Below, one piece after another: positions 2,277 through 60,606 of a DNA stretch of 64,000 nt (position 1 is its first letter; each line of letters opens with the position of its first letter). The stretch comes from an uncultured Eubacteriales bacterium. Lineage in GTDB: Bacteria; Bacillota; Clostridia; Peptostreptococcales; Anaerovoracaceae. Under the pieces are notes generated by a model. That model did no database searches. It saw nothing but the letters and a program-made list of their open reading frames with translations, and was not told where the DNA came from. The position numbers and the translations under genes were made by a program. The stretch is from the NCBI GenBank assembly GCA_902763505.1, contig CACWSO010000012.1:1-64000 (forward strand), read 5' to 3'.

Positions 2277-4002
<1,726 letters not shown>

Positions 4003-4013
<11 letters not shown>

Positions 4014-4572
4014 TGGAGTATTAAGAATTTACACAGATGGAGGTTGCGCAGGCAACCAGAACGATGAGAATCTGGGCGGCTGGGGCGCGATTCTGGAGTA
4101 TGCAAGGCCGGGCGACAGCGCGCCGGCGTCGAAGGAACTCTATGGCAAGGAAGCCAACACCACCAACAACCGTATGGAAATGACGGCGCTGTTGGAAGCG
4201 TTCCGAGCGATCAAAAAAGGGGACCAGGACATCCAGGTCTTTTCCGACAGCAGCTATTTGATGGATTGCTTCAGGAAGAAATGGTATGTGAACTGGCAGA
4301 AAAACGGATGGAAGAACGCCCAGAAGAAGCCTGTTGAAAATCAGGACCTGTGGAAGGAGCTTCTGCCGTTTCTTGATCAGCATGAGATAGAGTTTTTTCG
4401 CGTCAAAGGGCATGTAAATTTGGACAGTGAAAATACGAATATCATGAAGCTGTATGAGAAGTTCTGCGAGTGGAACGGAGGAGGGTTTTCTCTAGATGAA
4501 TTTCGATACATAATAGAGAAGAACAATCGGGCAGATGAACTCGCCAACAAAGGAATCGACGAGCTAAGATAA
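4003..4572 (+). CDS. rnhA: Ribonuclease HI
   Basis: This 189-residue enzyme cleaves the RNA strand of RNA-DNA hybrids. The catalytic carboxylates are visible as D12 (IYTDGG), E59 (NNRMEM), D82 (FSDSSY) and the C-terminal Asp in NRADELAN. A stretch of about 30 residues between KGHVN and NRADELA makes it longer than the E. coli enzyme (155 residues). The gene overlaps the kinase gene by 11 bases, so translation is probably coupled, although the functions look unrelated. A strong terminator follows. Confidence 0.95.
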
Positions 4573-58347: not shown

Positions 58348-58373
58348 GAATGTATGTTCTTGAACAAATGTTC
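58348..58373 (+). promoter_or_regulatory. Tandem LexA (SOS) boxes
   Basis: A perfect Gram-positive LexA box, GAAC-AAAT-GTTC, lies at 58362-58373, straddling the end of the -35 and the spacer. A near-match, GAAT-GTAT-GTTC (one mismatch), lies at 58348-58359, 14 bp centre-to-centre upstream. Confidence 0.75.
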
Positions 58374-58388
58374 GGTAAGTAGTATAAT
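58360..58388 (+). promoter_or_regulatory. Promoter of the radical-SAM DNA repair pair
   Basis: A -35 TTGAAC (58360-58365), 17-bp spacer and perfect -10 TATAAT (58383-58388) end six bases before the ATG at 58395. LexA bound to the overlapping boxes would block this promoter. Confidence 0.7.
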
Positions 58389-58394
58389 AAACCC

Positions 58395-59810
58395 ATGGAA
58401 GAGATACTCATGCAAAAGCTGCAAATCCTGGCGGACAGCGCCAAGTATGATGTGTCCTGCTCAAGCAGCGGGGCTAGCCGTGCGGCGGGCGGAAGAATGG
58501 GAAGCACCCACACTTCCGGAATCTGCCACAGTTGGGGTGCGGACGGAAGATGCATTTCCCTGCTCAAGGTTCTGCTTACGAACAAGTGCGTCTACAACTG
58601 TGAGTATTGCGTGAACAGGCGGACCAATGATGTTCCGAGAGAGTCCTTTGAACCGGACGAGCTGGCGAGGCTGACGGTGGAGTTCTACAGAAGGAATTAC
58701 ATCGAAGGGCTATTCCTCAGTTCGGCCGTTGAGGTATCGCCGGACTACACCGCGGAGCGAATCTTGCAGTGTCTGGAACTGTTGAGATACAAATACGGAT
58801 TCATGGGATACATCCACGCGAAAGTGATCCCGGGCGTATCCCAGGAACTGCTTCATAGAATCGGACTTGTGGCGGATCGGCTGAGTGTGAACGTTGAAAT
58901 GCCGTCACGGGAAAGCCTTGCTGCCTTTGCGCCCCAGAAGAAGGTCGAGCAGATCTTTGCGCCGATGAAGCAAATCACGAACACATTGATCGAGACCAGA
59001 TCGCTGAAGGGGCCGGGCACCATGTTCAAAGGGCAGCGACTGAACGATGCCAGCAACTATTTGGGACCGGCCGGACTGGCGGATGGGGCAGCAGAGGATT
59101 CCGTGACTTCTGCACTTTCCCTGGCGAAGGGCGCCCGCAGGAAAGGCTCTTTCGCGGCGGCCGGACAGACGACGCAGATGATCATTGGGGCAGGCAATGA
59201 GAGCGATGCCAGCATCCTGGCTACGAGCGAAAATCTCTACCGGACCTTTAAGATGAAGAGGGTCTATTATTCCGCCTACATTCCAGTCGTCGATTCACCG
59301 ATTCTGCCGGACAAAAGCACCGCTCCTCCGCTTAGGCGGGAACACAGAATCTATCAGGCGGACTGGCTGCTCAGATTCTATGGGTTTACGGTCAGTGAGC
59401 TCTTTAAGAGCGGAGGCGAGAATCTGGATCCGGATTTGGATCCGAAAGTGACATGGGCCCTGCGCAATTTGGACGAATTCCCAATTGAAGTCAACACGGC
59501 TTCCTATGAACAGCTGATGCGCATCCCGGGAATCGGTCATCTATCGGCGAAACGCATCATGCGGCAGCGACGGTTTGCGGCCGTCCGGTTTGATGACCTG
59601 AAAAAGATGGGTGTGGTCATCAAGAGAGCCAAATACTTTGTTCTGTGCTGCGGGAGGTATTACGGCGATAGGTCTTTCGCGCCGGAGACAATCAAGAATT
59701 CTTTGCTGCAGATGGAGAGCGGACTGCAGCTTTCCATGTTCGACAACGACTGGAAGAGAATCGAAGAGGGAGAGCGCCGGGAGAAGCTAGCCGCAGCAGG
59801 TGTGATTTGA
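58395..59810 (+). CDS. Putative DNA repair/modification radical-SAM protein (TIGR03916-like)
   Basis: This 471-residue protein carries the radical-SAM cluster motif C-x3-C-x2-C as CVYNCEYC (C65, C69, C72) and a helix-hairpin-helix DNA-binding motif near 373-395 (LMRIPGIGHLSAKRIM). The N-terminus LADSAKYDVSCSSSG is typical of the family linked to a DUF4130/uracil-glycosylase-like partner, encoded next. The reaction is unknown; DNA lesion repair is inferred, and the SOS boxes upstream support it. The start may instead be ATG 58410, which has GGAAGAG upstream. Confidence 0.9.
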   Translation: MEEILMQKLQILADSAKYDVSCSSSGASRAAGGRMGSTHTSGICHSWGADGRCISLLKVLLTNKCVYNCEYCVNRRTNDVPRESFEPDELARLTVEFYRRNYIEGLFLSSAVEVSPDYTAERILQCLELLRYKYGFMGYIHAKVIPGVSQELLHRIGLVADRLSVNVEMPSRESLAAFAPQKKVEQIFAPMKQITNTLIETRSLKGPGTMFKGQRLNDASNYLGPAGLADGAAEDSVTSALSLAKGARRKGSFAAAGQTTQMIIGAGNESDASILATSENLYRTFKMKRVYYSAYIPVVDSPILPDKSTAPPLRREHRIYQADWLLRFYGFTVSELFKSGGENLDPDLDPKVTWALRNLDEFPIEVNTASYEQLMRIPGIGHLSAKRIMRQRRFAAVRFDDLKKMGVVIKRAKYFVLCCGRYYGDRSFAPETIKNSLLQMESGLQLSMFDNDWKRIEEGERREKLAAAGVI

Positions 59811-59832
59811 GCCCAGCCTGGTGGATATCGTT

Positions 59833-60606
59833 ATGACGGATTATTTATATGACGGAACATTTGAAGGATTGCTCACTTGCGTGTACCACCACTATTACAC
59901 AGATAAAGCGTCAGGGATCTATCCAAAGGAGAGCTATCAGCCCAGCTTGCTGAATGGTTACATGGAAGTGGAAACGGAACAAGACAAGTCGGATCGCGTC
60001 TATGAAGCCATAGCGTACAAGATTTCGGACTATTCCCTGCGGCTGATCTACCGCGCCTATCTTTCCGGAATCGACGGGAAGGAGAACGTGATTTTAAGGT
60101 ACATTCTTTTGGGCTTTCGGATCGGCCCATCAATCGGATCGATGCATTCTCTTCCCGAAGTGAAGGCGCTGGAGGATATCGTGCGCAAAGTCGGCAACGA
60201 GCGTGAACGCATGCTTCAGTTCGTGCGGTTTGAAGTCATGGAGGGACCGATTGCAGGAGGCCCGCAGATTCTCTATGCGAAAATCGAGCCCGAACACGAT
60301 GTGATTGCCCTTGTAGCGCACCATTTCTCAGAGCGGTTCAAACACGATCCTGTCATCATTCACGACATCGGCCGCGCAAAGGCAATCGTTGCCTTTGAAG
60401 GGGACTGGTATGTGACGGACTTCGATGGAACCCACCTGCCGGACGGCAGCGGTTTCATTATGTCTGAAGATGAACTGTCCTATCAAAACCTCTGGAGAAC
60501 TTATTTCGACCACATCGCCATCAAAGAGCGTATCAATCCGCGCTGCCAGAAAAACCACATGCCGGTCAGGTACTGGAAGCATCTGACTGAGGTGAATGGG
60601 ATTTGA
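59833..60606 (+). CDS. TIGR03915-family putative DNA repair partner protein
   Basis: This 257-residue protein has the DUF4130-type sequence YDGTFEGLLTCVYHHYY at its start and the later RGPRIAGG-like block seen here as VMEGPIAGGPQILYAKIEPEHDVIALVAHHFSERF. Members always accompany the radical-SAM protein encoded just upstream, and the pair is assumed to act together on DNA. I use ATG 59833, with GGTGG eight bases upstream, rather than the GTG at 59821. Confidence 0.87.
   Translation: MTDYLYDGTFEGLLTCVYHHYYTDKASGIYPKESYQPSLLNGYMEVETEQDKSDRVYEAIAYKISDYSLRLIYRAYLSGIDGKENVILRYILLGFRIGPSIGSMHSLPEVKALEDIVRKVGNERERMLQFVRFEVMEGPIAGGPQILYAKIEPEHDVIALVAHHFSERFKHDPVIIHDIGRAKAIVAFEGDWYVTDFDGTHLPDGSGFIMSEDELSYQNLWRTYFDHIAIKERINPRCQKNHMPVRYWKHLTEVNGI

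Follow-up and report, generated by a model that had tools for sequence, protein, structure and literature searches.

The COG1573-COG4277 operon is part of the SOS networks of Bacteroidetes and has also been reported in Verrucomicrobia and Alphaproteobacteria, and a base excision role based on uracil-DNA glycosylase (UDG) has been proposed for it (PMC8565304; this and the other papers cited here are represented by excerpts). The pair CAC3343-CAC3344 of Clostridium acetobutylicum was listed as a LexA target in 2013, as a footprinting prediction with expression data cited in support (PMC3828012). SplB, a radical S-adenosylmethionine (radical-SAM) enzyme with a DNA lesion role, is under SOS control in several species (PMC8565304), and the LexA regulon of Streptomyces includes a radical-SAM protein, which may belong to another family (PMC9380542). 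Here we describe a gene pair for a TIGR03916 radical-SAM protein and a TIGR03915/DUF4130 partner in a 64,000-nucleotide stretch of an uncultured Eubacteriales bacterium (contig CACWSO010000012.1, positions 1 to 64,000; hereafter the window). LexA regulation of this pair is already known as a prediction, and the window is one more case of it. From the conserved promoter boxes and a conserved C-terminal tail we propose, with a probability of roughly 0.68, that the pair provides an SOS-induced radical-SAM enzyme, tethered to the sliding clamp, that would act on DNA lesions together with its TIGR03915 partner.

We take COG4277 to be a TIGR03916-type protein, and we understand the TIGR03916/TIGR03915 pair to have been named a putative repair system in its family description from a link to uracil-DNA glycosylase. 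Like the COG1573-COG4277 operon, the locus in the window appears to be SOS-regulated; that operon, however, has a glycosylase partner and other types of LexA box, whereas the partner in the window has no UDG domain. For CAC3343-CAC3344, the excerpt of PMC3828012 does not mention a clamp motif; in the window, the LexA boxes form a tandem with a spacing of 14 bp. UdgX (TIGR03914) is found in alpha- and betaproteobacterial loci as a domain fused behind TIGR03915, beside the radical-SAM gene, but gave no match in the genome of the window. Unlike SplB, whose family model it does not match, the window protein has a helix-hairpin-helix (HhH) motif, extra N-terminal cysteines, a clamp-like tail and a dedicated partner. 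Its tail motif resembles the QxxLF-type motif of PolC, MutS and Y-family polymerases, which in the three such proteins of this genome lies at or near the C-terminus, but none of these is a radical-SAM enzyme. DUF4130 itself has been predicted to be an enzyme related to mutagenesis, with associations to SplB-like photolyases and to uracil-DNA glycosylases, and the enzymes associated with it might modify thymines (PMC3765255); a family member is up-regulated on drying in Acinetobacter (PMC13130816). The excerpts of PMC8565304, PMC3828012, PMC3765255 and PMC13130816 show no lesion for the family.

The genes and control elements of the locus are the following:

58348..58359, strand not assigned: LexA box 1, GAATGTATGTTC, one mismatch to GAAC-N4-GTTC
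58362..58373, strand not assigned: LexA box 2, GAACAAATGTTC, no mismatch
58360..58388, plus strand: sigma-70-type promoter TTGAAC-N17-TATAAT, 10 of 12 consensus positions
58397..58403, plus strand: ribosome-binding-site-like GGAAGAG, read from the sequence
58410..59810, plus strand: TIGR03916 radical-SAM protein, 466 amino acids from ATG 58410, 581.6 bits against TIGR03916 (cut-off 343.5)
59833..60606, plus strand: TIGR03915/DUF4130 partner, 257 amino acids from ATG 59833, 235.2 bits against TIGR03915 (cut-off 112.25), with Pfam DUF4130 also over its cut-off

An initial annotation, made from the letters of the window, had described a radical-SAM/TIGR03915 pair with an HhH motif in the radical-SAM protein, a perfect LexA box over the promoter core and a one-mismatch box 14 bp upstream of it, and each of these elements is borne out by the coordinates and scores given here. 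Both boxes lie in the intergenic stretch between the TIGR03916 gene and a divergent Orn/Lys/Arg decarboxylase gene, 14 bp apart from start to start with TT between them, and box 2 overlaps the -35 element (58360-58365) and part of the spacer of a promoter whose -10 element lies at 58383-58388, and which points towards the radical-SAM gene. For that gene, ATG 58410 is a likelier start than the upstream in-frame ATG 58395, because GGAAGAG stands six bases before the former, and because the latter falls at the position where transcription would be expected to start, so that its message would have no leader. For the second gene, ATG 59833 is the likely start and GTG 59821 the alternative.

Absence of boxes in front of orthologues had been named beforehand as a refuting outcome; what we find is boxes at nearly all near relatives, at most loci drawn from across the phylum, and, in alpha- and betaproteobacterial relatives, boxes of their own class. 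The near set consisted of the best 80 of 139 relatives in a species-level genome collection, of which 77 loci were tested (L064 and L074, without a gene start, and L052, with fewer than 100 bases upstream, were left out; L073 and L080 come from one assembly). Boxes were sought from -200 to +6 relative to the start, with control windows taken from the same loci. A box with at most one mismatch was found at 74 of the 77 orthologues versus 120 of 2329 control windows, and a perfect box at 44 versus 3; the three loci without any box belong to one Fusibacter and two Synergistales. At 29 of 77 orthologues (0/2309 control windows) the boxes stand in exactly the same 14-bp tandem, all of them in relatives 69-99% identical to the window protein, and at 43 of 77 a promoter-like hexamer pair overlaps a box, a count that has no control. 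Of 299 genomes sampled evenly from the phylum, 65 passed the family cut-off; one of these is that of the window, and the other 64 were tested (control windows from the first 59 loci; a second, partial copy in G145 left out). In this draw, boxes with up to one mismatch were present at 46 of 64 loci, compared with 55 of 1030 control windows, and perfect boxes at 17 of 64, compared with 1 of 1030. Across 36 genomes checked for LexA, in a comparison partly biased by the inclusion of L084, L104 and L106 for being boxless, a full-length LexA match was missing in three (two Synergistales and G050), none of which has a box; of the remaining 33, 25 have a box.

In addition, 16 homologues were fetched from 158 plasmid records, picked mostly for genus spread. 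At all ten alphaproteobacterial loci, GAAC-N7-GAAC stands no more than 45 bases from the start; the pattern is seen in 1 of 415 control windows (2 of 415 for its opposite-strand form). The known alphaproteobacterial LexA site is the direct repeat GTTC-N7-GTTC (PMC8565304). Both betaproteobacterial loci carry CTGT-N8-ACAG, which is found in none of the 415 control windows. This is the E. coli-type LexA box, which we take to be the type of betaproteobacteria. The Lachnospira homologue has a box of the Bacillota type and that of Spirosoma only a one-mismatch site, of a kind found in 8% of control windows; among these plasmid-record loci, no box was found at the Subdoligranulum and Gemmatirosa homologues. 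The type of box matches the class of the host, and such retention of regulation by different letters is strong evidence for function: boxes that are kept across classes, with letters that differ by class, indicate that selection holds the gene under damage control.

The host itself encodes LexA (219.9 bits, cut-off 110.95). Counting both strands, the 12-mer GAACAAATGTTC occurs four times in its genome, and three of the four copies sit at gene starts, namely those of recA, of a Y-family polymerase gene and of the present pair; at recA, a second perfect box follows 58 bases beyond the 12-mer. The identities of RecA, the Y-family polymerase and a LysM protein, described below, were confirmed by Pfam. 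Together with the conservation of the boxes, the sharing of this 12-mer supports the damage-inducible promoter that the initial annotation had read from the sequence, and we regard it as very likely that the pair is under LexA control. The frequency of the motif is by itself ordinary and does not exclude chance: the window holds one perfect box versus 0.95 expected and 30 with up to one mismatch versus 26.03 expected, and the 2.29-Mb genome has 28 perfect sites versus 51 for the reversed pattern. The placement of the boxes and their conservation, by contrast, are not chance.

Near its C-terminus, the radical-SAM protein carries a further element:

59727..59741, plus strand: QLSMF, a sliding-clamp-binding-like pentapeptide (residues 440-444), recognised by conservation, controls and the published motif grammar

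This conserved motif was not mentioned in the initial annotation. Clamp-binding motifs are described as QL[SD]LF or QxxLF, and PolC has QLSLF as its C-terminal motif (PMC12309361). Of 106 orthologues, 87 match the pattern Q[LMIV].[LMFIV][FLMYI] within their final 90 residues, versus 3 matches over 36,931 positions in the bodies of these proteins, and the pattern matches 21 times in 23,996 positions of TIGR03915 proteins. A stricter form, Q[LMIV][SDTCA][LMFIV][FLMY], fits 80 of the 106 within their final 60 residues, versus 5 of 570 control tails (other open frames of at least 200 codons from the same loci, which are not verified genes). When the 106 tails are shuffled, over 1000 rounds, it turns up in 1.0 of them on average and in at most 5. 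It persists after clustering, in 70/86 representatives at 90%, 26/37 at 70% and 9/12 at 60% identity. The third position, which the looser pattern leaves free, is S in 70 of 87 tails and holds 3.2 bits; the motif positions hold 2.7-4.3 bits, with positions 1, 2, 4 and 5 preselected by the pattern, versus 0.7-1.8 bits in most of the flanks and 2.1 in the residue after the motif. In an alignment of 61 sequences Q440 is nearly invariant, unlike much of the surrounding tail, and residues 438-448 have a predicted local distance difference test score (pLDDT) below 50 in the AlphaFold2 model, as fits a linear motif. Judged by these patterns, the TIGR03916 protein probably docks on the DnaN clamp by its tail. 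Among the open-licence PubMed Central papers searched, we found no print report of a clamp-like tail in TIGR03916 proteins, nor, among the matches listed, a report of a radical-SAM enzyme bound to the sliding clamp. The tail indicates where in the cell a TIGR03916 enzyme should act and, if our reading is true, radical-SAM chemistry enters the sliding-clamp toolbelt.

Three further features of the protein bear on what it might do there:

58458..58553, plus strand: extra N-terminal cysteines C17, C39 (then H40) and C48, invariant in the 61-sequence alignment
58587..58610, plus strand: radical-SAM CX3CX2C (C60, C64, C67), invariant columns in the same alignment, with Pfam Radical_SAM over its cut-off in the protein
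59484..59573, plus strand: helix-hairpin-helix DNA-binding motif, Pfam HHH_3 30.7 bits (cut-off 27)

Within the hairpin, P373, G374 and G376 are invariant in the alignment. Of 23 sequences in a set that spans phyla, 22 have kept C17, C39-H40 and C48, which may form a second metal or Fe-S site; only a divergent Gemmatirosa protein departs from this. We envisage the two genes as one LexA-repressed operon, in which LexA dimers on the tandem boxes would cover the -35 region and exclude RNA polymerase until DNA damage, through RecA-triggered cleavage of LexA, releases the promoter. The induced radical-SAM protein would then dock on DnaN by its QLSMF tail and contact DNA via the HhH motif, and a SAM-derived radical, possibly aided by the C17/C39/C48 metal site, might reverse base damage or convert the damaged base, at the fork or behind it. 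The TIGR03915/DUF4130 protein would process, or help to recognise, the same lesion; its fusion to a UdgX-type uracil-DNA glycosylase in the alpha- and betaproteobacterial loci examined points to a base-lesion pathway. That the pair has a role in DNA lesions at or near replication forks seems to us a likely proposition. A DNA-lesion role is also what the initial annotation had read, on circumstantial grounds, from the damage-inducible promoter and the HhH motif, and the results support that reading. With slightly less confidence than for the locus itself, we also favour the wider view that the TIGR03916 family is a widespread class of radical-SAM DNA repair enzymes docked on the replisome: SOS-induced DnaN clients with an auxiliary N-terminal metal site, which would act on fork lesions together with a DUF4130/UdgX module.

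The partner offers a different view of the pair. In all three alpha- and betaproteobacterial partner proteins scanned, TIGR03915 is fused to TIGR03914, an UdgX-type glycosylase (Pfam also shows one of these fusions as DUF4130 plus UDG), and the next gene is annotated as UdgX family in 10 of 12 alpha- and betaproteobacterial records, the other two being unannotated. In this view, the pair might be an SOS-induced base-modification or excision branch that removes or tags uracil-like bases left by error-prone synthesis, in which the radical-SAM protein modifies or marks a base for a glycosylase and is not a fork-bound reverser of lesions. The UDG-based excision role proposed for the SOS operon of Bacteroidetes (PMC8565304) and the thymine modification suggested for DUF4130-associated enzymes (PMC3765255) agree with this. 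The genome of the window, however, gave no match to TIGR03914, and the core function here can therefore not depend on an UdgX domain; we consider this branch an unlikely explanation, with some appeal.

Alternatively, SOS control could be real and the enzyme could still work free in solution, by direct reversal as SplB does, with QLSMF serving as a folding or degradation tag. The radical-SAM core fits such an enzyme, as do the fold matches, which are to radical-SAM enzymes of a generic kind (ThiH, HydE, lipoyl synthase) with template modelling (TM) scores of 0.25-0.39 by query length. A search by sequence for relatives of solved structure gave only chains with an HhH motif, generic radical-SAM chains and weak matches at chance level. 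Membership of the SplB family itself was rejected, since in NCBIfam only TIGR03916, and no SplB model, matched at E values up to 0.001. The tail, moreover, obeys the clamp grammar (Q first, a hydrophobic residue fourth, mostly F fifth), and it recurs well beyond Clostridia. Alpha- and betaproteobacterial loci have QLxL[FLI] at the very end in 12 of 12 cases, with the strict pattern in 9 of 12, and Spirosoma (Bacteroidota) ends in QLSLF; the motif is missing from the picked tails of Subdoligranulum and Gemmatirosa, and in Subdoligranulum QLSLF lies farther from the end. The window's genome has the same type of motif in known clamp clients, with PolC ending in QISFF, MutS having QLTFF that starts 40 residues from its end, and the Y-family polymerase having QLNLF. 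A free direct-reversal enzyme is therefore, in our judgement, quite improbable.

That the boxes arose by chance, or serve the divergent decarboxylase gene, would accord with the roughly one perfect box expected per 64 kb and with their position between divergent genes, but both versions were rejected and are very improbable, since boxes stand at 74 of 77 orthologues while the decarboxylase was found at no more than 5 of 110 loci, each from a close relative (flanks of 1.5-3 kb), so that the boxes go with the radical-SAM gene, towards which the overlapped promoter also reads.

Several observations weigh against the proposal of an SOS-induced, clamp-tethered enzyme acting with its partner. In the tail, QLSMF fits the published consensus at positions 1, 2, 3 and 5 but has M and not L at position 4, and changes at the fourth position weaken clamp binding in E. 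coli (PMC12309361); the strict motif is also present in only 19 of 34 lower-scoring phylum loci, the others having QLSLW, QLSWDF, QLSFDF or nothing similar. At the promoter, only nearer relatives share the exact tandem spacing, which may reflect common descent and not selection, and no box was found in 18 of the 64 phylum-draw loci, four of them from one genus; of eight such boxless loci whose genomes were checked for LexA, seven have it. Nor was a box found at the starts of two unlinked TIGR03915 genes (the two recovered of six fetched), which speaks against a simple reading of regulation of the whole module. No match predicts the chemistry. For the partner, the top Foldseek ranks in the PDB and viral libraries are mostly DHH phosphoesterases, weak matches with TM scores mostly of 0.2-0.4, and alignment by hhalign to a DHH-family alignment and to NrnA gave probabilities of 0.1-0.2%; the DHH alignment consisted of the longest open reading frame (ORF) of each of 32 loci retrieved through the DHH family, unchecked and with at least one a neighbour. 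A DHH phosphoesterase fold of the TIGR03915 protein is therefore kept as a lead only.

As for the association of the two genes, TIGR03916 presumably pairs with TIGR03915 by its family description. A TIGR03915 relative lies within the fetched stretch of 69 of 78 Bacillota and Synergistota loci, and in four of the nine loci without one, the stretch beyond the gene is shorter than 400 bases. Six genomes with no TIGR03915 gene next to the radical-SAM gene have a match elsewhere, which in one of them is just a sub-cut-off fragment at the end of a contig. The partner in the window is predicted with a mean AlphaFold2 pLDDT of 92.7, and no solved structure related to it by sequence was found. One unlinked TIGR03915 gene without a LexA box at its start (L235) lies directly behind a gene that we take to be Hsp33-like, and near an ORF with a PCHRV motif, presumably alkyltransferase-like.

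Some individual members of the TIGR03916 family stand out. The Gemmatirosa homologue (L154, in our own gene model), which lacks the N-terminal cysteines and the motif in its picked tail, has no detectable TIGR03915 partner within 2.5 kb and perhaps represents a different subfamily. In the window, positions 59000-59155 encode an insertion of about 40-50 residues that is predicted partly at low confidence (residues 233-245 with pLDDT below 50), and orthologues of 409 amino acids appear to be without it. A contig of a viral collection (L238, positions 3001-4221), viral by the label of the collection, encodes a TIGR03916 homologue that ends in QLELFG.

Elsewhere in the host genome, two boxes, one perfect (L025 10216-10227) and one with a single mismatch (L025 10183-10194), precede a gene for a 104-residue LysM protein on contig C1, while lexA lies on another contig (C22). 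This short LysM protein resembles the division inhibitors of the YneA type, and the perfect box before it is related to GAACAAATGTTC. The fourth copy of GAACAAATGTTC (L026 4875-4886; C4:126874, minus strand) has only small ORFs nearby. Finally, a perfect extended box, CGAACAAACGTTCG (L017 3042-3053; C10:74941), lies between an ORF that by eye is integrase-like and a small divergent ORF, and perhaps marks an SOS-controlled mobile element.

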